A program made the translations under genes and the position numbers. The notes beneath the pieces were generated by a model. That model was not told the DNA's origin. It saw only the letters and a program-made list of their open reading frames with translations, and searched no databases. Positions 15,701 through 64,000 of a stretch of 64,000 nt of DNA are shown piece after piece. The stretch lies in the NCBI GenBank assembly GCA_949775045.1, contig OX459100.1, forward strand, positions 9,292,194 through 9,356,193. The letters run 5' to 3'. Positions within the stretch are counted from its first letter, which is position 1, and every line of letters begins with the position of its first letter. Origin of the DNA: Metridium senile. Taxonomy: Eukaryota; Cnidaria; Anthozoa; Actiniaria; Metridiidae.

Positions 15701-16694
15701 TACTTGTCAGAAGTCTTCAACTGGTCCAAAGTTTGTGGTAAGTTTAACCTAAAAATAGCGGCCACATCTTGTTCGGTATTTTAAAAGTTGCATGCTTGCA
15801 AATATAGCTTTAAGTTTTAAGAGCCCGCGCTCGTTGCTCAACAACGTTTTTCCACACGCTAATGTCAGCGTCCCAACTTTGTGACGCGAGTTAAAAGGAA
15901 GTATCCGCAAATAGTGTAGTTGATCACTATGCGAAAATAATTGTACGTTGTTCAGTTACTCGCTGTAGTTTATTCAAAGTCTTTTTTCTTTTTGTTGAGT
16001 TACGTGGATTGGTTGATGTCTCTGTTGTCTTTTGCAGACTTTACTTGGACAGAAGTACGGCTATTGTGCTTTCCCGCCTAAAATCCCAAATGATGAGTTC
16101 GATACTCTCCTAACCGCCATTGAAGACCCAGCCAATAAGGATTTACTACGGAAATGGTTTCTAAGAGACGACAACGCAGTCCCACCGCAATACGTAATGC
16201 AGCCAATCAGTTCCCAGTTTCCTGATGCCTTCAGCTCGTCCAATAAGGAGGCCAGGAAAGTAGCTACAAGGGCGTGGAGAGAGGTATATTACAAACTGCA
16301 AAACATGCTGAGAACTGCGGCGGCCAAAGCGTTGAACAAAAACGATGCACAGAAGTACTACATATCAGGTAAATACAATCTAAATATGGTATAACACCAT
16401 CAGTCATCACCATCGTACTGATTTTACAAAACGTCTTTCCTGTATATATTATATTTGTCATGTCTGTATTGTGTGAATTAGCGATAAATGATTAGTATGA
16501 AGCCTTGTCAATCAAATGGTATAACACCGTCAGTTTCGATACTTGAAACTATAGAGCAAACTTTCAGCTTTTACAAAAACTCTTTCCTGTTTTTGTCAGG
16601 TCAGGTTTTTGTGTGTGAATTGGCGATAAACGATTGGTATGAAGACTCGTCAGTGTGTACTGTATATGCTGCCTTCTTTGCATAATAATAATAA

Positions 16695-16739
<45 letters not shown>

Positions 16740-19700
16740 TCGCGGTCATGACGTACGGAACGAGAGCAGCGAGGTCCGTACAAATGACCAAGAGCAAAAT
16801 ATTTTCCCGTACGGCCCGACCTAACTTAGTCAATAAGTTTTTTTATCACATGACCCACTCTTTTTAATTTAAAGGCCATTTTTGTTGTGATGTTTCGAGT
16901 AGCTGGTCCGTACGTGTTTGTACGGACCAGGTGAAAAAAGCCTTACGGTCCCCATCACGTGACTTTTTACAAAGGTTTTCTTAAGAGCGCGCGCCGGGCA
17001 AAATACGGGTCATATGATAATTGTTATTCTGCTGCATTAGGGTTTTCCGATTTACCGGCACAAAGGCAGATTTAGCACTAATAGTGCCAGATGATAGAAC
17101 CAGTGTTAATTTGTCATTACTTTTGCAATAGTGTTCTTATTTTTTTATTCTTACTCTGAAAATGTAATATTTTGAACACATGCAACTCCTAGAAATTCTA
17201 ATAACGGTAAACATGCACGTATGCTAATTAGTATCTGGTACTATTAGTACCAAAGTCGCTAAATCGGAAAATCCTAATGCATGCTAACTTTAACTTGATA
17301 TTTTCCTTTCCAGTAATTGATCAAGAAATACGACAAGGAATTCTAAACTCACCCGACCCAAACACCGAATGTCTGTGGTTTAAACGAACAATAACGGACC
17401 TTAAAGACAACGTCACCAACGACAAGTCGGACAAGTTCATTGACATCAAAGGCATCCGTAAATCCAAGCGAAAAGGCGAACGAATCAATCCTAGTGAAAT
17501 AGATAAAGTAGCACAAAGTCTTCTCAAGAATCTCAAAGAAAAGAAGATAAGTAAAGTGTTGGATAAGTCCAACGTCTTTCCTTACGATATCAAGTTCTCG
17601 TCAAATAGTGCAGAGCGTGAAACCAAACTGACTCATGTACAGTTTCTGAGCAGCCTTTGCCAGGACTTTTTCCTTGTTGTCAAGCGACGAATAGCAGATG
17701 GAATAAAGAAAAGAGAAGCAAGTCAACCGACCAGGGACAGCCTATTGGAAGATATAACTGAACATGTAAAGTTCGCTCAAAGAAAACTGGCAGATTTCCA
17801 TGGACAGGACGATATGATGAAGACAATCCACAACTACCTGACGAAAAGCTGCACATCTCCTTTTGTTATCCACGGAGACTCTGGGACCGGAAAGACGTCA
17901 TTGGTTGCTATGGCAGCCAAGCATGCGCGTTCTTGGGTAAAGCAAGATGCTATTGTAGCGCTGCGGTTCCTTGGTACCAATCCTAACTCGTCCAATATAC
18001 GACTGTTGTTACGTAGTGTCTGTTTACAGCTGTGTAGGGCACTGGGTGCTACCATGGCTGTTCCTAAGGTAACATGCAATTAACCAATGACAGTACGGTA
18101 ATATCGGTATTAACATCCTGTCACACAACTTTAAGTAGTCTTTAAGTAGCTACCTCTTAACTACGGCAAAACTTGTCATTTAAACATTTACCTTGTGGCT
18201 TGAGTACAATAGACCTCTTTACCTCCGTATGCAAATTGCCCATTTCAGACCACGTGTCATTCCCGTGAGAATTGTTCTTTTATGATGAACGTGTTATATC
18301 ATTTACATGTGAAAGAAACAATTCCCAAGGGTTGCATTACGTGATCTGAAATGGGACAACAAACAAGGAAGATAAAGAGGTCTATTGCTTGTTCCACCAA
18401 ACGTTTTATTCCACGAATTGCTAAGTGAGAGTTTTTACCTTTTGTAACGAGTAACTTGTTATTGCTTAAAAAGAACTTTCCAACTTTCATCCTAGCATGT
18501 TATACTGATAAGTTGCCATGACGACGTTCTTGACGTCGACTTTCTTTATCACACTTCAAACACTATTCCAGTAAAGCTTGACTCCCCTAACAACTGATAG
18601 GTAATATAATAAAACACCGTAAAAAATGTTGACTTAACTTTACTTTTTTAGTAAAGTTGACTTAACTTTACCTTTTTAGTAAAGTTGACTTAACTTTACT
18701 TTTTTAGTAAAGTTAAGTCAACATTTTTTACGGTGTTACAAATTACCTATCGTTTATATCAAATACCGACGCAGCCTATTCCAGTATAACTAGACTCCCT
18801 TAACAAGTGACACCTTTCTGATAATCTTTTTTGTTATATTGTAGGACTATCAAGAACTGATTCGTGTATTTCATGAGTGTCTCAACATGGCCAGGGCATC
18901 CAGACCAATCATCGTCTTCCTGGACTCACTAGAACAGCTGTCAATCACTAACAATGCGCACATGATGGCTTGGTTACCGAGGATGCTACCGTCCCACGTG
19001 CATATCGTGGTCAGTACGTCCAACGAGCAACAGAGCACGTGTTTACCCGCTTTGCAGGTAATGATAGTCTACTTTAACGAGGGTTAATATCTAACATACT
19101 TATTATCATAATAATTATGGTGATAATGGTATTGATGAAGATGATAATGGTAATGATTATGATGATGATGCAGGTCTTAGAGGCAATGATGATAATGATT
19201 ATGATGATAATTATGGTGATAATGGTATTGATGAAGGTGATGATGGGAATGATTATGATGATGATGCAGGTCTTAGAGGCAATCAGATGATAATAATTAT
19301 GATGATAATTATGGTGATAATGGTATTGATGAAGATGATGATGGAAATGATGGGAATGATTATGATGATGATGCAGGTCTTAGAGGCAATCAGATGATAA
19401 TAATTATGATGATAATTATGGTGATAATGGTATTGATGAAGATGATGATGGAAATGATGGGAATGATTATGATGATGATGCAGGTCTTAGAGGCAATCAG
19501 ATGATAATAATTATGATGATAATTATGGTGATAATGATGAATATGATGATGGTAGTGATGATAATAATAAACCTTTTGATAGTTCCGTTCAGTAACCACG
19601 AACAATAATTCCAAGTAGAGTCTGGAGTTACCACACATGCGGAACTTGGAAACTATCATTCGTGGTCACTGGACGGAACTGTGAAAAAGCTTTATGACGA

Positions 19701-22700
19701 TGCTGAAGGTAGCCTCCTAGCAGACGTCATTTTTGTCGGCCTATAGTGAGGGAGGAATATGAGACCGACGTCTGCTAGGAGGCTATGCTGCACTGAGGTA
19801 TTACAGCTAAAAAAGACTAATATTGAAAATTGACATAACAGAAATGTTACCTTTTCTATCCATAGAAGTTAATCCCAGATCGTTCGTGCTTTATGGAGGT
19901 TGGTCCACTATCTTGCGAGAATGCTTCATCCATCTTGTCCAATTGGCTTCTTAAACAACAACGACGACTTACAGGTGAACAGTTGAACATGATCATGACT
20001 GCCTTCTCTTCCTCGCCAACACCACTATTCCTGAAACTAGCCTATGAACGGGCTATAAGATGGAATTCTTTCTCGTCTGTACACGATACATCCTTAGAGA
20101 CCTCAGTTTCAGCGTTAATCACTTCACTTTTTGACAACCTTGAGCGCAAACACGGCCAAGTGTTCATCAAACGCCTGGTATCCTATCTAACAGTGCAAAG
20201 AAATGGTTTGAGTCAGTCAGAGCTAGAGGATGTACTCAGTTGTGATGAAGACGTTATCGATGAAGTGTATCGTTTCCGAGCTCCTCCGATTCGTCGTATT
20301 CCTCCTGCCTTGATAGTCCGAGTGTTTGCCGATATTGAGCCGTATCTTTACGAACAATGTACGAACGGTGTCCGAGTCTACTCGTGGTATTATAGACAGT
20401 TTGTTGAAAAAGCGACGAAGAAGTACCTGGATACCAGTTTACTAGTGAAAATGGCGCATTCAAACCTGGCAGACTATTTCTACGGTCGTTGGACTCAAGG
20501 AGCGAAGAAAGATGACGGGAAAGGAGTCTTAAAGGATCGCCATGTTGCAAGTCAGCCTGATATGTTCAGCAAGACGGTTTTCAACTTCCGAAAACTAAAC
20601 GAACTACCTTACCATCTTTTACAAACCGGGGATGTCGACAAACTCAAGCAGCATACTTTATGTAACTATGACTTTCTGTCAGCCAAGTTACAGGCTACGT
20701 CTCCACGACATGTTCTCCAAGACTACTCAGACGCATTATCCATGCACCCCGCTGACCAAGACCTCGCCATTGTCTTGGAAACGCTACAGTTATCACGTGA
20801 TGCACTGACGATATCCTCTGACCAACTATCGGCTCAGCTTATTGGTCGCCTGTCTGCGCTTAGGTCCGCTAGCCCAGTAATTGCGCGGTTACTCCGTCAA
20901 GCACATCATCCCGTTAGCCACTCATTCATTCCCAATGTCCCCTGCCTAAATCGACCGGGTGAGAAACTGGTTCGTTCTGTACCAAACCTCGACGGCTACC
21001 TCGCTATTAGTAATGACACTACTAAGGCTTTGTCTGTATCACGTGATAGGATGATAGTATTATGGGATGTTCGTAGTGGCGCTGTGTTGCAGACGATTGA
21101 GAGCGCAAGTGATGTCGGGTATCTAGCATTCTGTCTTGAAGACAAACACGTCGTTGCCTCTTGTCAAGGTGAAATTCGACAATGGTTCCTCAAAACCGTT
21201 AAATTAAAGTACGAGTTAGAGTCAACGAGTTGTGCTCCAATATGTGTAGCTAATGGAGGACAAACAGTTGTTGCTGTAATGAACGAAAACATCAAAATCA
21301 TTAAAGCATCCGATGGTAGTATCCTCAAGGAATTCCAAGGTGGCGACTTCATCCATGACCAGGTTGCATGCTGGGATCATCTCGTTGCCATGGCAAGCAC
21401 ACAACATCGTTACGTCAACATCTACGACCTGAGCAGTCACGAAATGGTCAAGCCTATCCAAGCCTTTGATGAGAACTCGAAGGATCTTGTTAGCTCGATT
21501 ACATTAAGTTCTTTCAATGAAGGACAGCTCATCGTCTACTCTAGCAGGTCCTCTAGCGTCAGGGTGTTTGACATAAAGTCCTCAAACTGCCTGCATGTCT
21601 TAGGCCCTGATATATTGAACCCAACAGTGACCCTCAATGGACGTTATATGTTGTGTACAAATTGCTATAATGACGTCAGTGTTTGGAACCTGCAGACTGC
21701 TATGAAGGAACGTCACGTGATTCGCCATCCACCCTCGACATCCATCCATCAAATCATTAGTCATGATGGTAAGGTCATTGTAACCACGTCTGATGACAAG
21801 CTGGTAAGGGTCTGGGATCTAGACCAAGAAGAGGTATTTATACTTTTAGTGATGAGCTTGGATGATGATGATCTGATTATGACGATATGATGTTGATGAT
21901 GATGATGTTGATGGTGGTGGTGGCGACTATGATGTGGATGATTTTGCTGATGTTGATGATTGAAAGGGTGATAAGTATGATGAGTTTGGATAGTGATCTG
22001 CTGATGACGATATGATGATGTTGATGATGATGATGGTGGTGATTATATGATGTGGATGATGATTTTGCCGATGTTGATTATTTAAAAGGTGATAAGTATG
22101 ATGAGTTTGGATCGTGATCTGCTGATGACGATATGTTGATGATGATGATGGTGGTGACTATATGATGTGGATGATAATGATGATTTTGCCGATGTTGATG
22201 ATTTAAAAGGTGATAATGATATTTGACTTGTGTGGTGTTGATGATGCGCATAACGATAACAGTGATGATCGATATTCTAATGGTCGAACTAACCTAGAGT
22301 TATTGTTTTCAGACGTGCAAGGTTGACTTCGAGGACAACAAAGGTGATCATTGTATAGAGTATTTAGGAATGATCAAAAGCAGCATCCAGAAACAAGTTG
22401 TCACCAAATCACGTGCTTCAGGTAAAACCATCAAATATGTTTGTTCATCAAACGTCGGGGAGCCATCCATCATCTAATGTCGTTAATTTTTGTGATGCTA
22501 ATAACGAACAGTGTTGGTTTATTTGTGTTACCATATAGTAAATGTTAAACTGTTGTATCACTTCTTCCCATACTTTGTCGTAAGAACAGTGTTTGTTTAT
22601 TTGTGTTACCATATAGTAAATGTTAAACTGTTGTATCACTTCTTCCCATACTTTGTCGTACGAACAGTGTTTGTTTATTTGTATTGCCATATAGTACTTG

Positions 22701-24393
22701 TTAAACTGTTGTAACACACACTTCTTCTCATACTTTGTCGTACACTGATTTATGTCCCTTCACACGTCACAATGTATTCCATACTGGCCTCGGTCCTTGT
22801 AGGGCGGCATTGAGGCACCCAAGCCCAACCTTATCATTGCCGATAAGTTTAATTTGTATTGCCATATAGTACTTGTTAAACTGTTGTAACACACACTTGT
22901 TCTCAAACTTTGTCGTACGCTGATCTCTGTTCCTTCACACGTCTACCTCAAACTTTGTCGTACGCTGATCTCTGTTCCTTCAAACGTCACAATGTATTCC
23001 TTACTGGCCTCGGTCCTTGTGGGGCGGCATTCAGGCACCCAAGCCCAACCTTATCATTGCCGATAAGTTTAATTTGTATTGCCATATAGTACTTGTTAAA
23101 CTGTTGTAACACACACTTGTTCTCAAACTTTGTCGTACGCTGATCTCTGTTCCTTCACACGTCACATTGTATTTCATACTGTTAATGCATAATTGCTCAT
23201 CATCAACAGGACCAATCAGCGTTTGGAACGTCATTACTTGTCAACCAATCAGAACTCTGGTTGGGACTAACGCAGACGAGATCTTAGTGGTAGACGAGAC
23301 ACGTGCGGTAGTACGGTCAGGTGCTAAATTAGCGTTAGTCGACTTACAAGAGGGCAAAGTCATCAAACATATGCGATCGGAGTTTTCGACAAAGGTAGAG
23401 AAAGTCAACCGGCATGCTAGTTCGTTGTACAAACGCCGTGATCTCGCTATTCGACTGGCTGAAAGTCCACGATTCAATACACGAACAAAGTCAAAGACAC
23501 GAAAGTTTAACGACTGTGCGTTGGTGGGTTCGTCGTATGTATTGGTTCTATCCAAGGACAGACTTTATATGAAACTAGCTTCACTGGAGACAGGCGAGCC
23601 CGTGGCAAAACTCAAGGCAGGTCAGCGTGCTATCATTGAGACTATCATGGTCAGTGAAAATGGAACGATAGCTGTATGCGCATGCGAAAACTTTCCTCTA
23701 CTGGTGTGGGATATCAAAGAACGACGTAAGTTGTTCTCGTTAGACATGGACGGGACGTTCCCACAGCTCGCTACGGCTGATATCAGTCAAAATGGCCGCT
23801 ACCTCGTCGATGTCATTAAACTGGACAAGAAACACAAAACGGTGGTCACGTGGGACCTAGAGACTGGGACGGTCAAGCACTTGATTGGTCAAGGCCTAAA
23901 TGTGTGGTCAGTGGCTGTATCATCGATAAGCATGCGCCTTGTAGTAACAGGAAGCAGTGGTGGTACTGAGACAATACGTATCTATGACCTTGGCAACGGT
24001 GAGTTCAAACACCAGCTGGGTGGACACACAGAACCTGTTAAAGGTGTCTGTCTGTCCAAAGATGGTCGACGTCTATTAACCTACGTACCACTGGGTGCCT
24101 GGGATCGTAGTGTCTGTCTTTGGGATATAATTACTGGGTGTCCAATAGCGTCATTTACTCCTGACCTTCCTGTATCCAGCTGTGTCTTGAATGATGATGG
24201 TGATCAGGTTGTGATAGTGATCAACAAGTCTCGACCAATCGTATCACTAGCCTTGACTCACGAGACAGGATCACGTGAGATGTCCGTCGATGTATCGAAT
24301 TCTTACTTTAACCACCCTACCCTCCACGGGGCTGTCTTTGACTTGACGTCACAGATGAACTTGGATGACGCCGGTGAGGACGACGAAAACTAG
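12680..24393 (+). CDS. NACHT and WD40 repeat protein, NWD1/NWD2-like, complete
   Basis: STAND-type signalling ATPase. Ten exons, all GT-AG: 12680-12765, 14433-15028, 15535-15737, 16038-16368, 17314-18068, 18845-19057, 19866-21833, 22313-22421, 23210-24393 (stop TAG). Counting gives nine coding exons; phases close exactly to 1814 aa. Order: acyl-anchor-like MGCCGSK; a charged disordered stretch (30-215); a DUF4062/TIR-like N-terminal domain (about 216-330: RLYVSSTFTD, ERVYPKLKEYC, YEFQVIDMRWGV) of the kind found in NWD1, NWD2 and NPHP3; a linker; NACHT with P-loop GDSGTGKTS (593-601) and Walker B IIVFLDS (Asp684); a helical STAND region; then WD40-type blades from about 1090 to the end (LWDVRSG, VWDLDQE, TWDLETG, LWDIITG). 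Vertebrate NWD1/NWD2 share this architecture. Whether it is the direct orthologue of either I cannot tell. The first ATG has an acylation motif, which supports the start. Confidence 0.9.
12766..14194. other. NACHT-WD40 intron 1, no recognisable content
   Basis: AT-rich unique-looking sequence. Short ORFs on both strands show no recognisable motifs or repeats. Confidence 0.5.
14195..14360 (-). mobile_element. tRNA-derived SINE, family A copy 2
   Basis: Same tRNA-like head as 2286-2368 (AAGGATGGCACAGTTGGTTAG ... AGTTCAATTCCCAG ... CACATCCTTG) on the minus strand with a shortened body. It is in intron 1 of the NACHT-WD40 gene. Confidence 0.7.
15198..15237. promoter_or_regulatory. Two palindromic CRE-type sites in NACHT-WD40 intron 2
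   Basis: TGACGTCA occurs at 15198-15205 and again at 15230-15237, both in the context CGTGACGTCACG. This is the consensus bound by CREB/ATF factors. Position inside an intron next to CGCGCG-rich sequence may mean an internal promoter or enhancer, or part of a repeat. Confidence 0.45.
16699..16838. mobile_element. MITE-like element with CTTATTGACTGAGT ends
   Basis: Left CTTATTGACTGAGTGGGAGG then GGACGGGAAAATATTT; right AAATATTTTCCCGTACGG then AACTTAGTCAATAAG; inverted and ~140 bp. Intron 4 of the NACHT-WD40 gene. Confidence 0.7.
17033..17282. mobile_element. MITE-like element ending 31 bp before NACHT-WD40 exon 5
   Basis: Inverted ends TGCATTAGGGTTTTCCGATTTA and TAAATCGGAAAATCCTAATGCA; interior AT-rich with TAGTGCCAGATGAT / ATCTGGTACTATTAG pairing. 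TGC flanks on both sides. Confidence 0.75.
17314..19057 (+). CDS. NACHT-WD40 exons 5-6: nucleotide-binding core
   Basis: Exon 5 (17314-18068) ends the linker and carries the P-loop GDSGTGKTS preceded by FVIH. Exon 6 (18845-19057) carries Walker B (PIIVFLDSLEQLS) and a following helix-strand (SHVHIVVSTSNEQ) typical of NACHT domains, where sensor 1 is expected. Both Walker motifs look intact, so ATP or GTP binding is plausible. Confidence 0.85.
18209..18386. mobile_element. MITE-like element, family 'atagacctctttacc' copy 2
   Basis: Copy of 6264-6445, highly similar along its length, inserted in intron 5 of the NACHT-WD40 gene. The high similarity suggests fairly recent spread. Confidence 0.8.
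18613..18737. repeat. 125-bp hairpin-forming palindrome
   Basis: AACACCGTAAAAAATGTTGA then GACTTAACTTTAC words are mirrored by GTAAAGTTAAGTCAACATTT then TTTACGGTGTT. A short direct duplication (AGTAAAGTTGACTTAACTTT) sits in the middle. It would fold into an almost perfect stem in intron 5 of the NACHT-WD40 gene. Confidence 0.8.
18738..18800. repeat. Single dispersed unit of the 66-bp satellite
   Basis: ACCTATCGTTTATATCAAAT then ACCGACGCAGCCTAT matches the unit of the array at 48350-49335. It lies directly after the hairpin at 18613-18737. Confidence 0.7.
19099..19570. repeat. GAT-rich minisatellite with ~110-bp higher-order repeat
   Basis: GATGATAATTATGGTGATAA-type repeats; the phrase GCAGGTCTTAGAGGCAA recurs four times at roughly 100-110 bp spacing (near 19171, 19267, 19373, 19482). 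Intron 6 of the NACHT-WD40 gene. Confidence 0.85.
19581..19690. mobile_element. MITE-like element, family 'agttccgttcagt' copy 1
   Basis: ATAGTTCCGTTCAGTAACCA at the left, TGGTCACTGGACGGAACTGT at the right, with AATTCCAAGT / ACTTGGAA inside. Copy 2 at 25682-25844; a fragment near 50010-50040. Confidence 0.7.
21880..22250. repeat. TGATGA-rich minisatellite in NACHT-WD40 intron 7
   Basis: Three diverged ~120-bp units share AAAGGTGATAAGTATGATGA and GATCTGCTGATGACGATATG. Non-coding; it follows directly after exon 7. Confidence 0.8.
22500..23165. repeat. Compound tandem repeats in NACHT-WD40 intron 8
   Basis: About three ~87-bp units (CCATATAGTAAATGTTAAAC, CTTCTTCCCATACTTTGTCG) are followed by two longer units with ACTGGCCTCGGTCCTTG and CCCAACCTTATCATTGCCGA. 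The small ORFs with repeated HFFPYFVVRTVFVYLCYH-like text come from this array. Confidence 0.85.
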
Positions 24394-26108: not shown

Positions 26109-46741
<20,633 letters not shown>

Positions 46742-48345: not shown

Positions 48346-48349
48346 AGTA

Positions 48350-49335
48350 TCGTTTATATCAAACACCGACGCAGCCTAAGCTAGTTTACTCGCTAGTTTC
48401 CATTCATATTACCTATCGTTTATATCAAACACCGACCCAGCCTATACTAGTTTACTCACTAGTTTCCATTTATATTACCTATCGTTTATATCAAACACCG
48501 ACGCAGCCTAAACTAGTTTACTCGCTAGTTTCCATTTATATTACCTATCGTTTATATCAAACACCGACGCAGCCTAAGCTAGTTTACTCGCTAGTTTCCA
48601 TTTATATTACCTATCGTTTATATCAAACACCAACGCAGCCTAAACTAGTTTACTCGCTAGTTTCCATTTATATTACCTATCGTTTATATCAAACACCGAC
48701 GCAGCCTAAGCTAGTTTACTCGCTAGTTTCCATTCATATTACCTATCGTTTATATCAAACACCGACGCAGCCTATACTAGTTTACTCACTAGTTTCCATT
48801 TATATTACCTATCGTTTATATCAAACACCGACGCAGCCTAAGCTAGTTTACTCGCTAGTTTCCATTCATATTACCTATCGTTTATATCAAACACCGACCC
48901 AGCCTATACTAGTTTACTCACTAGTTTCCATTTATATTACCTATCGTTTATATCAAACACGGACGCAGCCTAAGCTAGTTTACTCGCTAGTTTCCATTTA
49001 TATTACCTATCGTTTATATCAAACACCGACGCAGCCTAAACTAGTTTACTCGCTAGTTTCCATTTATATTACCTATCGTTTATATCAAACACCGACGCAG
49101 CCTAAGCTAGTTTACTCGCTAGTTTCCATTTTTATTACCAAACGTTTATATCAAACACCGACGCAGCCTATACTAGTTTACTCGCTAGTTTCCATTCATA
49201 TTACCTATCGTTTATATCAAACACCGACGCAGCCTATACTAGTTTACTCGCTAGTTTCTATTTATATTACCTATCGTTTATATCAAACACCGACGCAGCC
49301 TATACTAGTTTACTCGCTAGTTTTCTCGCTAGTTT
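48350..49335. repeat. 66-bp satellite, ~15 units
   Basis: Unit starts GTTTATATCAAACACCGACG then CAGCCTAAGCTAGTTTACTC and ends CATTACCTATC-like. Units differ at a few positions, with two alternating sub-types (CATTCATATT/CATTTATATT). Sixty-six is divisible by three and the unit is stop-free in one frame, giving an open 335-codon reading. Confidence 0.95.
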
Positions 49336-50632: not shown

Positions 50633-53600
50633 ATGTCAAAAGATCCTAACTTAGGAAAGACTTTCATGGTCGATGAGGCCAAACGTGAGATGGACCAAGC
50701 TGGTGTTGGTCGGCCAGAACGGGATGACGGCCTCACGGAGGAAGAAAGGAAGAACTTTGGCTACTATCCATCACTTCATCCAATTGGCTGGAGGGTAATC
50801 GATCGACTTACTTCTCTTTCCTGTCTTCTTTGTACCTTCTTTGTCCAACTGTTATTTTTAAATCTAACGTTAATGAAATGTTTTCGATGTTTTTCAGAAA
50901 CTGACCGATGGTGTAGAAAAATCAATTGAAGAGTTAAAGTCAAGTGACGAGAACTATGACAGTGTTAACACAGCTGCAAGTACGAACGTTAATACTGCGA
51001 ATGCTTCAAGTACTAACGTTAATACTGCGAATGCTGCAAGTGCGATCGTTAACACTGGGGATACTTCAAGAACGAACGTCAACACCGAAAGTGAGATCAC
51101 TGCAAAGACAAACTCTGGCACGAACACTGCCAACTCGAACTCTACGGCCACGGCCTGTGCAGTCACGAGCTCTGCGACTACCAACAATGCAAGCTCCGAA
51201 GCTGCCAGGACCGTGAGCTGCTTGCCAACTGAAGAGTTCGAGAGCGCAGTGTTCAGTATCTTCGTCAAAAAAGTCATACCATCTTGCTACTACGACAGCG
51301 ACACTGACCTTCGTAGTAACACCCCAGAAGAACAGATCGCTGCTGAAATGGAAGCCTTTCTAGACACCTTGCACGAGCCTCAGTTTAATAACAACACACG
51401 GGTAGTCTTTGCATCAACACAAGGAACGTCTACCAACAACACCGTGAGCCTTGCAAGTACTGTCAACAACACCGGACGACTTCCAAGTACTGAGGCACCG
51501 TATGTCATCAACACCGGACGACTTCCAAGTACTGAGGCACCGTATGTCACCAACACCGGACGACTTCCAAGTACTGAGGCACCGTATGTCATCAACACCG
51601 GACGACTTCCAAGTACTGAGGCACCGTATGTCATCAACACCGGACGACTTCCAAGTACTGATGCACCGTATGTCATCAACACCGGACGACTTCCAAGTAC
51701 TGAGGCACCGTATGTCATCAACACCAGACGACTTCCAAGTACTGAGGCAACATATGTTAACACCACCAGACGACTTCCAAGTACTGAGGCACCGTATGTC
51801 ATCAACACCAGACGACTTCCAAGTACTGAGGCAACATATGTTAACACCACCAGACGACTTCCAAGTACTGAGGCACCGTGTGTCAACACCACCGGACGAC
51901 TTCCAGCTCCAGAACTAGCTACGCAAGCAGCATCCGAGGTACAAGATCTAGCACAGTACCAAGTAAAGCCGACAGTTTCTCGTGCCGATGAACCAAGCAA
52001 CGCCAAGCAGCTTGCTACGAAAGAGGATGATTTTCTTGCCTACAAACCATCATGGACTACCAAGACTAAAACAGATAATACCAGGTGTCGGGTAGCAAAC
52101 AACAGTCTGCAAGCTAATACCTTGATGCAGCAAGCAGCATCCGAGGTAAGAGATCTAGTAGAGTACCAAGTAAAGCCGACAGTTTCTCGCGCCGATGAAC
52201 CAAGCAACGCCAAGCAGCTTACTACGAAAGAGGATGATATTCCTACCTACAAACCATCATGGACTAACAAGACTAAAACAGATAATACACGGGAAGTACA
52301 CAGCAGCCAGCAAACCAACACCTTGAGCACGTACGAACAAGAACAACACTCATCGCGCAAGAATGAAAGGGGTAATACTGCTCAACAGAACACGTTCAAG
52401 TCTAGGTATTATTCCGCTGAGAGTGATAGAATTATGGAACTTTATTATCGTATGGTAGAAGAAGACATGGCTAGACAAGAGCACATGGCGAAGCCTGATA
52501 CTTGTCCTTCGATAAACTACACACAGAAGTCGTCCAGTCTTAGCCCTCAGAATACCAGAGAACAACTACCTTGTGGAGGCTTGCAGTTGAACAATGCCAA
52601 AGTATCTTCCAATGGACGGCCTTTACGTCGTGACCAGGCATGTAGTCTTGCTGGACAGAACAGCAACGAAAAACCATCCGGTGGCCGAGATTTACAGTTC
52701 AACCATGGCAAAGTATCTACCACTGGCCTGCCTTTACGTCGTGAACAGGCATGTAGTCCTGCCGTACAGAACAGCAACGAAAAACCACCCGGTGGCCGAG
52801 ATTTACAGTTCAACCATGGCAAAGTATCTACCACTGGCCTGCCTTTACGTCGTGAACAGGCATGTAGTCCTGCCGTACAGAACAGCAACGAAAAACCACC
52901 CGTTGGCCGAGGTTTACAGTTCAACCATGGAAAAGTATCTACCACTGGACTGCCTTTACGTCGTGAACAGGCATGTAGTCCTGCCGTACAGAACAGCAAC
53001 GAAAAACCTCCCGTTGGCCTATCTATTATCGATGACCAACACTGTAGTCTTGGCTTGCAGAACGTCAGAGGTAAGCATAGTGATGTGCATAATATCAGAC
53101 ATTGTGAAGAGCCCTCCGCGAGAGGCAGGCAAACTATCAACGACCGGAATACCACCTTGGATCTTAAAGAAGCTGCCATGAAACGAGAAGACGAGACCTC
53201 AGGAATGGTAGGTTCGTTGGATATATCTATCCAAGGAGCTGCCATCGTAAAACCAAGTCCTGATGCAAGGGCAGCCAATTACACAAGTTTAGACCACCTT
53301 GCCTTAGATCCTACCACAGTAGGGCTGCATTCTCTTCATGATCTAAACATCCGACCAAGTGCAAACATGCTACGGGATAACAGCACGTCTTACATGTCAT
53401 CTCGAGACAGAAACACCAGGCGTTTTGAAGGTGCATCGGTAGTACGAGCCACAGGGATGCTCTCCAGCCGTCACATGAATGATATTGCATACAAACGGGA
53501 ACAGCTTACTGGACGTCTTGGCACTCAGGAACGCTTCCAAAGACAGAAGTCTTTCTCCTTTGGTAGTGGTGTGCAGCCTGATAACAAAGAAGAACCTGGG

Positions 53601-56600
53601 GAAATAGTCGAGGTCTTTCATCGAGAACAGCCAGTAAAGGAAGAGCCCGAGGAAATAGTCGAGGTCTTTCATCGAGAACAGCCAGTGAAGGAAGAGCCCG
53701 AGGAAATAGTCGAGGTCTTTCATCGAGAACAGCCAGTGAAGGAAGAGCCCGAGGATATAGTCGAGGTCTTTCATCAAGAACAGCCAGTAAAGGAAGAGCC
53801 CGAGGATATAGTCGAGGTTTTTCATCAAGAAGAGGCAGTGGAGGAAGAACCTGAGTATTGTCCTGCCTCTCCTACTTTAGAAGTTATTGATTTGGAAGAT
53901 ACTAACAAAGGTAATACTTTGTTCTCTACTTTTACATAACCATAATACTTTCTGTTTTTTTTGGGGGGGAGGGAGGGGGAGGGGGATTGATGTTTGTTTG
54001 TTAATTCATTTATCTATTTGCTTGTTTGTTAATTCATTTATCTATTTGTTTGTTAATTCATTTATCTATTTGCTTGTTAATTCATTTATATATTTGTTTG
54101 TTAATTCATTTATATATTTGTTTGTTTGTTAATACATTTATCTATTTGTTTGTTAATTCATTTATATATTTGTTTGTTAATTCATTTATCTATTTGCTTG
54201 TTAATTCATTTATCTATTTGTTTGTTTGTTAATTCATTTATTTGTTTGTTTGTTAATTCATTTATCTATTTGTTTGTTTGTTAATTCATTTATCTATTTG
54301 TTTGTTAATTCATTTATCTATTTGTTTGTTAATTTATTCATTTATCTATTTGCTTGTTTGTTAATTCATTTATCTATTTGTTTGTTAATTCATTCATCTA
54401 TTTGTTTGTTAATTCATTTATCTATTTGCTTGTTTGTTAATTCATTTATCTATTTGTTTGTTTGTTAATTCATTTATCTATTTGTTTGTTAATTCATTTA
54501 TCTATTTGTTTGTTAATTCATTTATCTATTTGTTTGTTTGTTAATTCATTTGTCTATTTGTTTGTTAATTCATTTATCTATTTGTTTGTTTGTTAATTCA
54601 TTTATCTATTTGTTTGTTAATTCATTTATCTATTTGTTTGTTTGTTAATTCATTTATCTATTTGTTTGTTAATTCATTTATCTATTTGTTTGTTTATTCA
54701 TTTATCTATTTGTTTGTTTGTTAATTCATTTATCTATTTGCTTGTTTGTTAATTCATTTATCTATTTGCTTGTTTGTTAATTCATTTATCTATTTGCTTG
54801 TTTGTTAATTCATTTATCTATTTGCTTGTTTGTTAATTCATTTATCTATTTGTTTGTTAATTCATTTATCTATTTGTTTGTTTGTTAATTCATTTATCTA
54901 TTTGTTTGTTAATTCATTTATCTATTTGTTTGTTTGTTAATTCATTTATCTATTTGCTTGTTTGTTAATTCATTTATCTATTTATTTGTTTGTTAATTCA
55001 TTTATCTATTTGTTTGTTTGTTCATTTATCTATTTGTTTGTTAATACATTATTTATTTAATTGTTTGTCTGTTACTCATTTATAATTAAACTAAATAATT
55101 AGTTTAATAATAATAATACTAAAGTACAAACACTAAACGTGTGCAATACTTTGTACTATTTACCACTAAATAGAGTACAAACACTAAAAGTGTGCAACAT
55201 AAATACCACTAAATACTGCTAAATTATGCAAATTCTTTTGTTCTCTTTTGTTTAATCAACACTATTTAGTGGTAAATAGTACAAAGTATTGCACACTTTT
55301 AGTGTTTGTACTCTAGTGTTGATTAAAGAATAGAGAACAAAAGAATTTGCATAATTTAGCAGTATTTAGTGGTATTTATGTTGCACACTTTTAGTGTTTG
55401 TACTCTAATAATGATAATAATAATATAAATCCTGACTTTAACTTGATATAGTATATTTTATATATATTTACCTAAATTACGATTATACCTATGTTAGAGG
55501 ATAAGCCTGGATCGCCGCGAAGAGAGATGACGGAAGAAGTTAGAGAAAAATTTCGACAGCACTTGCGAAAGCGTATACAAAGACGCCGTGAACAAAGGAT
55601 TGCAGAATATATTGTCAAAAAGAAAGAAGAATACGAAGCACAAATGCAGACGGAAGACCCCGCACGAGTTCAAGCATATTCTGTACAAATCCCAGCAGAA
55701 GAACCGTTACATCAAGTGCAAGCACAAGAGCCCGAGCAAGGAGCCGCACTCGACGAGGCGACGGACACTTTTCCCGACAAACCTTTCACCAAACCTAAAC
55801 TTTTTAGACGCAAAAAGACGCAGAAGGCAACAAAGATGTATCAAGATCGCCCTGCAACTCCGTCTCCTGTAAGTAAGATGACTCTGTTTAATAGCTGTTA
55901 TTACAGTTATATGCAAATGATTTCAAACAATGGATTCAAATCGAGGCTTTCAGGCAAACCTATTGTTTTCGCCCGAAAGCCTCGACTTCAACCCATTGTT
56001 CAAAATCATTTGCATATAACTGTAATAACAGCTATTGTTAGCTGTGTGTTTTGCTGGTTGAAAATAGGTTTGTAGGTATGTTGAGTTTATAGTTGTTTTG
56101 TGTGTTGACTGGTTGTTGAGATGTTTATTTAAACACGACTAATAGGATACATGGTTTGTTGTTCAGTAGTTTAGTGTTTCGCTTGGTTAGTTAGGTAGTT
56201 AGGTAGTTCGTTGACTACTTGATTTTCTACTCAATATTCGATCATGGGCTCCGAAAGGATAGCGTAAGAAGGGAAGGCCAAAAGAGACATGGAGGAGAGC
56301 AATTGAATAAGAAAGGAAAAAGATAGGGTGGCGGGAATGGAAAGGTTGAACAGATCGCAGCGGACAGGCCAAAAAGGAGGGAGTTGTTTCTTGCCTCATG
56401 TTCCGCAAGGAGCTAGGAGAAATGAAGATTTCGATCATGACTTCTTTTTATTCTAAACGTTTAATAGAATAGTTCGCTTGATCGTTCTTGGTCACGGCGC
56501 ATCTGTAGCTTCGATTTACAACCACCAGGGGTTTTCTCCGGGTTATCTGGTTTTACTGGCTAAATACATATGAGACGTTAAAAAAGTGATTTATTTTTAT

Positions 56601-57009
56601 TGTATTTTACCAACACTGCAATGTTTTCATAGCTTCAGGTTGGTACACCAGAAGATTCTTTTTCTGAAGAACCATCTGATGAGGAGCCTGATTTAGGATC
56701 TAACGTAGTATCTCCTGTGCAAGGCAAGCGACGTCCACATTGGTTTAGATGGAACAAAGAGCGAAAAGCGCGTAGCAGACCACCAACCGCAGCCGCCAAT
56801 AGACCACCAACAGCAGCCGCTAGCAGATCACCAACAGGAGTCGCTAGCAGATCACCAACAGGAGACGCTAATAGATCATCAGAAGTAGTCGCTAGCAGAT
56901 CACCAACAGCAGCCGCTAGCAGATCACCAACAGGAGTCGCTAGCAGACCACCAACTAGAGCTAGTAGACCTGCCACAGCGGTAAGTTCTGGTGTATGAAT
57001 AACGATAGC

Positions 57010-57040
<31 letters not shown>

Positions 57041-58458
57041 AATGATAACGATGATGATAGAGATCATGAAGGAAGTAATAATGATAATTGTTAAAATATG
57101 ATTATGATAATGATAGCTATGATAACGATGATGATGATGATGATTGTGATAAGGATGAAAGTGATGATGGTAACATTCAGAATATAATAATGAAAAATGT
57201 GGAAGATAACGAATGAAATGATGATTTTGATGTTTTTTTAGACCTTGGACGAGCCCAGGAGTGACCTCAGGCCCGAAGCTGAACTTCCTCAAGCCACACC
57301 GCTTGTAAGTAGCATAGCCAATCAATAAACTATCGTCAGAAGCTGTTAAAAATAGCGAACTTTAGTTCAATCTTTGTTATTCGTTAACGAACTAGTGATT
57401 GTATTTTAAAGTGCAAATTATTGCACAACTTATTTGTACAACTTATTAACTAAAAAAAAGTTCTTATAACTTATATCTTATAGATTTAAAAATAGTTTTT
57501 TCAAATAGATTAATTTTTAGATATTTTAAGTGTATCATAATATAGTTTTAGGATTTAGGATTCATTTTTATACTTTGACTTGTGCACCTTTGATTTGTAT
57601 TTAATCAATTGAATAAAGAGATATTATTGGGTTATTATTTTAAAGGTCCCTGAAGCCAGCTTGTCAGGAGAAGCATCAGGATCTTTGACTCCAGCAAAGG
57701 AAGCCCACAAACAACGACCAGGCGCTGCTGTCCCTAAATCGATGTAAGATATGGATTGAGAAAAGCTGTTGTTGTTGTTATTATTGTTGGTATTGTCGTT
57801 GTTGGCGGTTGATGGTGACCATAACGATCAGCTGACGATAACGATAACGACATTGATGACTATAAGGATATTTCTAACTATGACGACGGCGATAACGATA
57901 ACGATATTTTTAACGATGACGATGAAGATGATGATAATGATAACGACAACAATATTTTTAACAATAACGAAGACGATAACGATAACGATATTTCTAACGA
58001 TGACGATGACGATAACGACAATGATATTTCTAACGATAACGACAACGATATTTCTAACGTTGACGATATTGATAACGACAACAATATTTCTAACGATGAC
58101 GACGATAAAGATAACGTTATTTCTAACGATAACGATGACGATAACGATGACGATAACGATAGCGACAACGATATTTCTAACGATGACGAAAAAGATAATG
58201 CTGTCATATTTGTATTTACTCGTAGGAAAACACGAAGGCTGCAGGCACTTTGTGCTGCATATAAAAACGGTGGACCAGGCGAACCTGAAGTCGCTGATGG
58301 AAACAGCTCTTCGACTGAAAGCAATCAGAGCACGCCCATTGCTACACGACGAGTTGAACCTGAGGAAGACGAAGTTCCCGTTTCCAGCCCCAAGCAGAGA
58401 TGGTTCATGGATCGTGTAAGTAAATACAGACAGACAGACAGACAGACAGACACAATAA

Positions 58459-58541
<83 letters not shown>

Positions 58542-59292
58542 AAGAAAGAGAGACACAATAAAGACAGACAGACAGATAGATAGAGAGACACAATAAAGAC
58601 AAACAGACAGACAGATAGAGAGAAACAATATATAAAGACAGACAGACAGACAGACAGATAGATAGATAGAGAGACACGATAAAGACAGACCGATTTTCTT
58701 TAGAATACAGACACAAAATCAGAATGCAGGGAGAGATAGACAGGGCAATGGACACAGATTGGAGACAGACACATTCACATACACACAAACAGAATGCTGG
58801 TAGAGATAAAGAGGGCAATGGACACATTGAAGACAGACAGACAAACACTATTTTTCCAATGTTAATGGTTGTTTGCTTTCTCGTTTAAAGCTTCGTAGAC
58901 GACGATCAGCCTCGCGAAACGACGCAGCTCAGGAACAACCAGCTCAGCCAGACCAACCGGCTGAGCCCGCAGAACCCGTAGTGCCCGCAGAACCCGTAGT
59001 GCCTGCCGAGCCCGCTGAACCAGCGGTATGTATATATTTAACAAACATGAAACAGTTTTCCGTATTTGACACTCTGATCCTAAACAAGCGCAACGCTGCG
59101 AGATATAGAAAGGACCGTATTAAACCACTATACGTGAAATTGATTCATGACTTTTGAAAATGACATCCCCATTAAAGCTAAATTGACTACTTTATTTTTA
59201 AATTATTTACTTACTTATTTACTTACTTACTTATGTACTTACTTACTTATTTACTAACTAACTTACTTATTTACGTACTTACTTATTTAATA

Positions 59293-59365
<73 letters not shown>

Positions 59366-59471
59366 GGAACCCGAGCGTCAACCAACGCCCGTCAGGAGGG
59401 TGCCTAGGATCTACAGGTTTTTGTGCTGCTTGTGCTGGCGCGGCAATCGTGTCGGGATTGCAGAAGACTGA
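50633..59471 (+). CDS. Unrecognised repeat-built protein with SUMO-site/SIM array
   Basis: I do not recognise this family. Nine exons, GT-AG, in phase: 50633-50794, 50898-53910, 55498-55868, 56639-56980, 57242-57304, 57646-57743, 58226-58415, 58891-59025, 59367-59471 (TGA); 1492 aa. The N-terminus (MSKDPNLGKTFMVDEAKREM, EEERKNFGYYPSLHPIGW) may be the only folded part. The rest is polar and low in hydrophobics, with internal repeats: 14-aa (RLPSTEAPYVINTG, about 210-355), a ~70-aa pair, 37-aa units (about 610-760), and the 17-aa VKEEPEEIVEVFHREQP array (951-1037), then LEVIDLED. After that come a basic helix (REKFRQHLRKRIQRRREQR), SRSPTGVA repeats, Pro/Glu/Ala-rich exons, and a C-terminus with FLCCLCW. 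The exon 2-3 splice is the weakest: exon 2 reads on to a stop at 53939, and exon 3 has an in-frame ATG at 55491, so two genes remain possible. Confidence 0.65.
51467..51905 (+). repeat. 42-bp coding repeat (RLPSTEAPYVINTG)
   Basis: Eleven units plus a partial one in exon 2 of the repeat-rich gene. Two sub-types alternate near the end (APYVIN and ATYVNT), as expected from unequal exchange of pairs. Confidence 0.92.
51929..52300 (+). repeat. ~207-bp coding duplication
   Basis: Two copies of AASEVxDLxxYQVKPTVSRA then DEPSNAKQLxTKEDD and YKPSW, in frame within exon 2. Confidence 0.9.
52563..53020 (+). repeat. 111-bp coding repeat (37 aa)
   Basis: Four to five units of LQFNHGKVSTTGLPLRREQA then CSPAVQNSNEKPPGGRD, in exon 2. 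The first and last units are the most diverged. Confidence 0.92.
53587..53901 (+). repeat. 51-bp coding repeat: SUMO-acceptor/SIM array
   Basis: Five units of 17 aa. Each has KEEP preceded in most units by Val (VKEE = hydrophobic-K-x-E sumoylation consensus) and EIVEV or DIVEV (hydrophobic x4 pattern next to Glu/Asp = SUMO-interacting-motif pattern). After the array, VIDLED at 53884-53901 matches a canonical SIM. Motif matches are seen; function is inferred. Confidence 0.75.
53985..55075. repeat. TTTGTTTGTTAATTCATTTA minisatellite
   Basis: Over a kilobase of 20- and 24-bp units (TTTGTTTGTTAATTCATTTA then TCTA, with optional extra TTTG and T/C changes). It separates exon 2 and exon 3 of the repeat-rich gene. 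Confidence 0.95.
55122..55406. mobile_element. Nested fold-back element
   Basis: AGTACAAACACTAAACGTGT / ACACTTTTAGTGTTTGTACT at the outer ends, with inner pairs ATAAATACCACTAAATACTG / CAGTATTTAGTGGTATTTAT and TTAGTGGTAAATAGTACAAA. It looks like two related inverted-repeat copies, one inside the other. Confidence 0.75.
55889..56037. mobile_element. MITE hairpin just after the exon 3 donor
   Basis: AATAGCTGTTATTACAGTTA then TATGCAAATGATTT at the left, AAATCATTTGCATA then TAACTGTAATAACAGCTATT at the right; inner stem GAGGCTTTCAGGC / CCCGAAAGCCTC. It starts about 20 bp after the donor GT at 55869. Confidence 0.85.
57000..57235. repeat. GATGAT microsatellite in intron 4 of the repeat-rich gene
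   Basis: GAT/GATAAT/GATAAC runs; the ORFs across it are low-complexity artefacts. Confidence 0.9.
57830..58200. repeat. GATAACGATATTTCTAACGATGA minisatellite in intron 6
   Basis: Irregular units of GATAACGA and TATTTCTAACGATGACGA; gives long Ile/Thr, Val/Ile and Ser/Leu ORFs in several frames. Confidence 0.9.
58420..58660. repeat. (CAGA)n microsatellite in intron 7
   Basis: Long CAGA runs separated by ACACAATAAAG. The minus strand reads as CLSV repeats, which are not a protein. Confidence 0.95.
59195..59366. repeat. (ACTT)n microsatellite ending in the exon 9 splice acceptor
   Basis: ACTT/ATTT units run uninterrupted into TTACTTAG, whose AG (59365-59366) is the acceptor for the last exon. 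Confidence 0.85.
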
Positions 59472-61774: not shown

Positions 61775-63015
61775 ACAGATGGACGAGCTGGACGGTCAGA
61801 CGAACCGACAGATGGACGAGAGCTGGACGGTCAGATGAGCTGACAGATGGACGGGAACTGGACGGTCAGACGAACCGACAGATGGACGAGAGCTGGATGG
61901 ACACACGAACCGACAGATGGACGAGAGCTGGACGGTCAGACGAACCGACAGATGAACGAGAGATGGACGGTCAGACGAACCGACAGATGGACGAGAGCTG
62001 GACAGTCACAAGAACCGCCAGATGGACGAGAGCTGGACGGTCAGACGAGCTGACAGATGGACGGGAGCTGGACGGTCAGACGAACCGACAGATGGACGAG
62101 TGCTGGACGGTCAGACAAACTGACAGATGGACGAGAGCTGGACGGCCACACGAACAGACAGATGGACGAGGCCAAAAGACAGATGGACGGAAACCTACTC
62201 AGTTGCATATGCAATTTGTAGGGACCTATTGCGAGAGCTGGACGGTCACACGAACCGACAGATGGACGAGGCCAACAGACAGATGGACGAGGCCAGCAGA
62301 CAGATGGACGGAAACCTACTCAGTTGCATATGCAATTTGTAGGGACCTATTGCAAGAGCTGGACGGTCACACGAACCGACAGATGGACGAGGCCAACAGA
62401 CAGATGGACGAGACCAACAGACAGATGGACGGAAGCCTACTCAGTTGCATATGCAATTTGTAGGGACCTATTGCGAGAGCTGGACGGTCAGACGAACCGA
62501 CAGATGGACGAGGCCAACAGACAGATGGACGAGACCAACAGACAGATGGACGGAAGCCTACTCAGTTGCATATGCAATTTGTAGGGACCTATTGCGAGAG
62601 CTGGACGGTCACACGAACCGACAGATGGACGAGGCCAACAGACAGATGGACGAGGCCAGCAGACAGATGGACGGAAACCTACTCAGTTGCATATGCAATT
62701 TGTAGGGACCTATTGCGAGAGCTGGACGGTCACACGAACCGACAGATGGACGAGGCCAACAGACAGATGGACGAGGCCAGCAGACAGATGGACGGAAACC
62801 TACTCAGTTGCATATGCAATTTGTAGGGACCTATTGCGAGAGCTGGACGGTCACACGAACCGACAGATGGACGAGGCCAACAGACAGATGGACGAGACCA
62901 ACAGACAGATGGACGGAAACCTACTCAGTTGCATATGCAATTTGTAGGGACCTATTGCGAGAGCTGGACGGTCAGACGAACCGACAGATGGACGAGGCCA
63001 ACAGACAGGTGGACG
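61775..63015 (+). repeat. Compound satellite: 35-bp units grading into 121-bp units
   Basis: From 61775 to 62190 the unit is 35 bp (AGCTGGACGGTCAGACGAAC then CGACAGATGGACGAG). From about 62190 to 63015 it is a 121-bp unit that adds ACCTACTCAGTTGCATATGC then AATTTGTAGGGACCTATTGC to two or three shortened 35-bp-derived pieces. About seven 121-bp units. Confidence 0.95.
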
Positions 63016-63360: not shown

Positions 63361-64000
63361 GAAACCTACTCAGTTGCATATGCAGATGGACGAGAGCTGG
63401 ACGGTCACACGAACCGACAGATGGACGAGAGCTGGACGGTCACCCGAACCGACAGATGGACGAGAGCTGGACGGTCGCACGAACCAACAGATGTACGAGA
63501 GCTGGACGGTCACACAAACCGACAGATGGACGAGAGCTGGACGGTCAGACGAACCGACAGATGGACGAGAGCTGGACGGTCACCCGAAACGACAGATGGA
63601 CGAGAGCTGGACGGTCAGACGAACCGACAGATGGACGAAAGCTGGACGGTCACACAAACCGACAGATGGACGAGAGCTGGACGGTCGCACGAACCAACAG
63701 ATGTACGAGAACTGGACGGTCACACGAACAGACAGATGGACGATAGCTGGACGGTCAGACGAAACGACAGATGGACGAGAGCTGGACGGTCACACGAAAC
63801 AAAAGATGGACGAGAGCTGGACGGTCACACAAACCGACAGATAGACGAGAGCTGGACGGTCACGCGAACCAACAGATGGACGAGAGCTGGACGGTCACGC
63901 GAACCAACAGATGGACGAGAACTGGATGGTCACACAAACCGACAGATGGACGATAGCTGGACGGTCAGACGAAACGACAGATGGACGAGAGAGCTCGTCC
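63361..64000 (+). repeat. 35-bp satellite, continuing past the window
   Basis: Seventeen or so units of the same 35-bp repeat (GGACGAGAGCTGGACGGTCA then CACGAACCGACAGAT). It begins with a partial 121-bp unit and runs off the right edge. Confidence 0.95.

Follow-up and report, generated by a model that had tools for sequence, protein, structure and literature searches.

The gene and its tandem array

The window analysed here comprises 64,000 nucleotides, positions 9292194-9356193 of contig OX459100.1, from Metridium senile, the genome of which amounts to 389 Mb in 169 contigs. On its plus strand, open frames joined at GT-AG borders yielded a gene model of nine exons (50633-59471) that encodes 1,492 residues; its start ATG at 50633 and its transcription are predicted from sequence alone. 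Frame and phases are consistent over all eight introns, which places exon 2 in a coherent gene model. Exon 2 contains five tandem copies of a 51-bp unit, each of which encodes 17 residues with the motifs KEEP and IVEV (Table 1). A previous sequence-only reading had described these motifs as similar to a SUMO acceptor and to a SUMO-interacting motif (SIM), respectively, and had proposed that the protein may be a lineage-specific SUMO scaffold.

The array had been located at 53587-53901, which is right to within a few bases; the five units were confirmed at 53583-53837, and Tandem Repeats Finder lists them as 51 bp x 5.2 with 93% matches. The 51-bp repeat is not due to chance. The units read NKEEPGEIVEVFHREQP (once), VKEEPEEIVEVFHREQP (twice), VKEEPEDIVEVFHQEQP (once) and VKEEPEDIVEVFHQEEA (once). 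KEEP and IVEV are present in 5/5 units and the hydrophobic-K-x-E arrangement in 4/5, in agreement with the earlier wording "mostly VKEE"; in unit 1, an N instead of the V stands ahead of KEEP. The units are near-identical duplicates and have to be counted as one motif, not as five independent ones. Their 85 residues comprise 30 acidic and 8 basic (K/R) ones.

Table 1. Positions of the array, of adjacent motifs and of the exons in the window.
Feature	Position	Strand	Basis or remark
Five 51-bp / 17-residue units, (N/V)KEEPxxIVEVFHxExx, residues 950-1034	53583..53837	+	in frame, exon 2
Decayed sixth unit, VEEEPEYCPASP	53838..53873	+	lysine replaced by E, IVEV lost
VIDLED, residues 1050-1055, SIM-like	53883..53900	+	protein sequence
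Exon 1, residues 1-54	50633..50794	+	GT-AG junctions; start ATG 50633
Exon 2, residues 55-1058, array-bearing	50898..53910	+	also arrays of 30 bp, 42 bp x10.6, 111 bp x3.9
Exon 3, residues 1059-1182	55498..55868	+	gene model; long net-basic helix predicted
Exon 4, SPT/RSPT-type repeats, periods of 24 and 72 bp	56639..56980	+	gene model, Tandem Repeats Finder
Exon 5	57242..57304	+	gene model
Exon 6	57646..57743	+	gene model
Exon 7	58226..58415	+	gene model
Exon 8, PAEPVVPAEP repeats, period of 18 bp	58891..59025	+	gene model
Exon 9, C-terminus ...RIYRFLCCLCWRGNRVGIAED and stop codon	59367..59471	+	gene model

The tandem arrays listed in the exons have periods of 30, 42, 111, 51, 24/72 and 18 bp, every one divisible by three, whereas the periods of the intron arrays of the gene include 28, 52, 4 and 70 bp, plus 3, 6, 24 and 84. 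This difference fits a translated, repeat-built protein, and the protein is largely of this kind, as had been proposed, with arrays in exons 2, 4 and 8. For the exon 3 piece (55500-55868), AlphaFold2 without alignment predicted one long helix from residue 6 to residue 51, with block means of confidence of 75-98 over residues 1-50. The helix region contains 9 acidic and 15 basic residues.

No Pfam family reached the cut-off in the full 1,492-residue protein (the two best E-values were 0.12 and 0.49), which agrees with its description as otherwise unrecognised. Protein searches were performed over a set of 5.8 billion proteins, in which only candidates of similar length sharing most 5-residue words were scored. 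No homologue was found at E up to 10, neither for the full protein among 7,980 scored candidates nor for a shortened, de-repeated version of 569 residues among 7,993; this word-based search may miss a fast-diverging protein. A control query, made of three joined frames of the neighbouring NACHT-WD gene (1,082 residues), yielded 57 hits with E up to 1e-10, among them proteins from Nematostella (54% identity over 62% of the query), Stylophora (46% over 61%), Montipora and Acropora. Because the control query finds cnidarian proteins, the lack of homologues has some weight, within the limits of a search by shared words. The protein is probably either lineage-restricted or diverging too fast for a word-based search.

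Three parts of the gene were compared with the genome to look for further copies: the array, exon 3 and the remainder of exon 2. No second copy of the array was found, the next match having an E-value of 0.18 and two internal stop codons, and exon 3 matched only itself. The rest of exon 2 matched itself and 32 other places among the 51 of 483 candidates that were scored (best E 7e-17, 29% identity, with stop codons). All 32 lie within query residues 174-339, the site of the low-complexity 42-bp array, and are taken as probable repeat matches, not paralogues.

SUMO-related motifs and interpretation of the array

A SIM is a loosely defined motif with a core of four residues, typically at least three of them hydrophobic with a preference for V, I and L, and acidic residues can help (PMC12751080). 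IVEV in the five units and VIDL in VIDLED agree with this definition, each having four to five acids in a 12-residue stretch around the core. The most frequent SUMO acceptor site is [IVL]KxE (PMC3395311), a form of the consensus psi-K-x-E with a hydrophobic residue psi.

We consider it most probable (at roughly 60%) that a single 51-bp unit expanded in tandem and in frame, within a disordered region of a cnidarian protein that either diverges fast or is restricted to its lineage. The product would form a flexible, strongly acidic tether. This tether would adjoin the predicted long basic helix of exon 3, giving a charge-patterned protein. The SUMO-like motifs would more likely be a by-product of copying a unit rich in E, V, K and P than a selected function.

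Duplication multiplies whatever motifs the first unit carried. When random 17-residue units of the protein's composition were read as an array, 0.04% of them had the two loose motifs together, and so did 1.9% of shuffles of the unit's own residues. Of random 30-residue stretches of the same composition, 1.3% contain a loose acidic SIM core, which makes VIDLED beside the array a mild coincidence. In 21/57 proteins of the control search, a loose acidic SIM core lies within 17 residues of a psi-K-x-[E/D]. These proteins are mostly folded NACHT-WD relatives of one another and an imperfect control; all 57 rows were kept, one of them (P0001) being the piece from the window itself and at least one other (P0055) being bacterial, and the proportion shows only that the motif pairing is common. 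Outside the array, psi-K-x-[E/D] occurs once, compared to 1.37 (standard deviation 1.17) in shuffles, and loose acidic SIM cores occur twice (the overlapping LEVI and VIDL), compared to 0.70 (standard deviation 0.87). Both counts are near the shuffle level and neither motif is clearly enriched there.

Several observations speak against the tether. The proline-flanked acceptor form, to which we return below, is found in 0.07% of random units of the protein's composition and in 2.2% of unit shuffles. The pairwise ratio of nonsynonymous to synonymous differences (N/S) is 0.38 for the five units and 0.48 for the four VKEE units, compared to 1.16 for the 42-bp array, 1.08 for the four-unit 111-bp array and 1.88 for its three-unit version in the same exon. 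This is a hint of more constraint than in the other arrays of exon 2; the difference falls short of significance (Fisher p = 0.19, binomial p = 0.11), the column counts for these tests having been derived by hand from the pairwise comparison of units. All six columns with amino acid variation avoid the K, the E at +2 and IVEV, with p = 0.037 by column count and p = 0.075 when the E is left out of the set; the columns were picked after inspection of the data. The disorder that had been proposed agrees with the low confidence of an AlphaFold2 model of a 140-residue piece with the array, computed without alignment (mean predicted local distance difference test score, pLDDT, of 52). In this model, DSSP assigned no structure; single-sequence models of this kind are weak evidence of disorder, and this, too, counts against the proposed tether.

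A SUMO acceptor cluster is the alternative that survives best, although we regard it as unlikely. Ubc9 would modify the four PVKEEP lysines, VIDLED perhaps assisting as a SIM, and the protein would be a substrate and not a scaffold. In four of the five units, PVKEEP is followed by acids, and the sequence agrees with psi-K-x-E flanked by prolines. All four sites have this synergy-control form; its spacing pattern has four matches in the protein, all within the array. In Nurr1 and other transcription factors, SUMO motifs with a proline or glycine at their flanks are known to serve as acceptors (PMC3554661). The only other strict psi-K-x-[E/D] of the protein is MKRE at residue 815. Against the cluster stands that predicted SUMO sites are not always confirmed (PMC3395311), and that the sites are copies of a single event, with N for V in unit 1 and no lysine in unit 6. 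Of the two halves of the earlier proposal, the acceptor half is the stronger one: the acceptor-like motif was found as described, with four VKEE in the proline-flanked form, while the modification itself is a prediction. SUMO acceptance at the VKEE lysines is plausible, but no more than a fair lead. Should one SUMO-related property be real, it would be acceptance at the PVKEEP lysines.

A different function may be envisaged for the hydrophobic part of the unit. The IVEVF strand could bind some other partner by beta-addition or self-associate, KEEP being a charged spacer. It is consistent with this that IVEVFH is invariant in 5/5 units, its codons differing at one place by a synonymous change. 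However, there is no candidate partner, the array had no match with E up to 10 among the sequences of solved structures, and the single-sequence model is of low confidence and without assigned structure; we consider this alternative improbable.

A multivalent, lineage-specific SUMO scaffold or condensate with alternating acceptor sites and SIMs, comparable to PML bodies, is more doubtful still. Five alternations of KEEP and IVEV (four with psi-K-x-E) are packed into 85 residues and followed by VIDLED. The acids EPEE, EPED or EPGE precede the IVEV core, which is the arrangement of anti-parallel SIMs (PMC12751080); this order is therefore no objection in itself. Moreover, SUMO and its SIM ligand are used to model phase separation in the laboratory (PMC10859935), and in GCNA there is a precedent for SIMs in a protein that is acidic, disordered and rich in repeats (PMC5098910). 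The published patterns SIMa, SIMb and SIMr (PMC3395311), however, yielded no match in the 1,492 residues, the IVEV units and VIDLED included, compared to 31/57 (SIMa), 18/57 (SIMr) and 2/57 (SIMb) of the mostly folded control proteins. SIMr needs three acids or serines directly ahead of psi-x-psi-psi, and the VEVF of the units has an I there. Behind IVEV follow F-H-R or F-H-Q and therefore the forward patterns fail.

VIDLED, where EDT follows the core, is one residue short of SIMa and fails SIMb, an E standing for T. Two patterns of the ELM database do not match the units; VIDLED fits only one ELM pattern, which also fits elsewhere in the protein. For IVEV, what stood of the earlier claim is the agreement with the loose definition. 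By this definition the units qualify and may bind SUMO, but the case for a SIM is weak: the loose pattern is common, at a density of 2.9 per 1,000 residues across the control set. Pfam recognised no RBCC/TRIM motif in the full protein, neither SUMO-related motif is clearly enriched outside the array, and the supposed multivalency is one motif duplicated. A PML-like scaffold is therefore unsupported, though conceivable. Least likely of all is a cnidarian-specific, length-variable SUMO polymer module, in which each unit would combine a synergy-control acceptor with a reversed-type SIM, a bound SUMO would be caught by the adjacent unit or another molecule, and the module would lengthen by minisatellite growth next to the basic helix.

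The array is instructive in either case. If the lysines are modified, it would be a natural repeat whose number of SUMO sites shifts by slippage, and hence a simple test of valency in SUMO-dependent assembly. If they are not, it would clearly illustrate how a motif that arose by chance can, once duplicated in tandem, pass for a multivalent array made by design.

Further features of the gene and its surroundings

A cysteine cluster, RFLCCLCW, stands behind basic residues at the C-terminus of the protein (exon 9, 59367-59471). Presumably, it could be a lipid-modified membrane anchor, which would speak against a nuclear scaffold. Introns 2 and 3 contain inverted repeats at 55171-55407 (94-nt arms, 98%) and 55890-56036 (69-nt arms, 90%) that look like small inverted-repeat elements. 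About 1.3 kb upstream of exon 1 lies a 66-bp minisatellite of 14.8 units (48348-49323), whose period is divisible by three and in which one frame is open over 341 codons. Large minisatellites with 35-bp and 121-bp units are located downstream of the gene, at 61775-63015 and 63383-63991.

Other genes are represented in the window, too. Pieces of an NPHP3-like/AAA and WD40 gene with an NWD1-like winged helix (16017-24390, plus strand) have a Nematostella NACHT-WD protein as the closest named relative. A cnidarian source of the DNA is supported by the nearest named relatives of this neighbour, which are from Nematostella and Stylophora. The minus strand contains pieces of a polycystin-1-like gene (26112-44655) with Laminin_G_3, PKD repeats, REJ, PLAT, and the polycystin domain and channel; this stretch has many simple and tandem repeats. 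Also on the minus strand are an mRNA (guanine-N7) methyltransferase exon (PF03291, 1676-2191) and another matching exon at 442-831. The cap methyltransferase exon contains an in-frame 18-bp x12.3 array (1854-2075) of KPQDDS-type units directly before the family-matching stretch. Such growth is therefore not special to the array gene.

The SUMO-related family PF11976 has 14 matches in the genome. Nine are in one frame of contig C14 and five at other places on C3, C15, C13, C1 and C4. By eye, these five look ubiquitin-like or, on C1, similar to a RAD60/NIP45 SUMO-like domain; no canonical SUMO exon was recognised among them, which is no evidence of absence, as SUMO genes may be split by introns. 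A literature search without preprints and with few subscription papers found no description of a tandem array that joins acceptor and SIM in this way; a review on tandem-repeat effectors of Ehrlichia contains the term "SUMOylation consensus" once (PMC10028187).

Comparison with known systems

GCNA resembles the Metridium protein in its large, acidic, repeat-built disordered region and its SIMs, and the mouse sequence at first aligned to no relative (PMC5098910). It follows that the absence of homologues is no proof of novelty. Human GCNA, however, contains both a protease and a zinc-finger domain (PMC5098910), whereas the Metridium protein has no Pfam family above the cut-off. Mouse GCNA consists mostly of repeats (PMC5098910), and a degenerate relative is thus still conceivable.

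Membership in the GCNA family was rejected: the protein contains no Pfam family above the cut-off, and the one match found in the genome to SprT-like, the Pfam name of the GCNA protease domain, lies on contig C1 (51187417-51187551) and not at the array gene.

PML (TRIM19) shares with the earlier proposal the combination of several SUMO sites and a SIM; in contrast, it has an RBCC/TRIM motif that is essential for body formation, and its SIM core is VVVI (PMC3660695). Synergy-control transcription factors such as Nurr1 have psi-K-x-E between prolines, as in PVKEEP (PMC3554661), but are DNA-binding proteins, and no DNA-binding domain was recognised by Pfam in the Metridium protein. The tandem-repeat proteins of Borg elements also contain in-frame units with lengths divisible by three and are mostly disordered; a wide range of eukaryotic short linear motifs have look-alikes among their repeats (PMC9879509). 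Borgs differ in being archaeal extrachromosomal elements. By analogy, look-alikes of such motifs may arise without ancestry shared with eukaryotic motif proteins.

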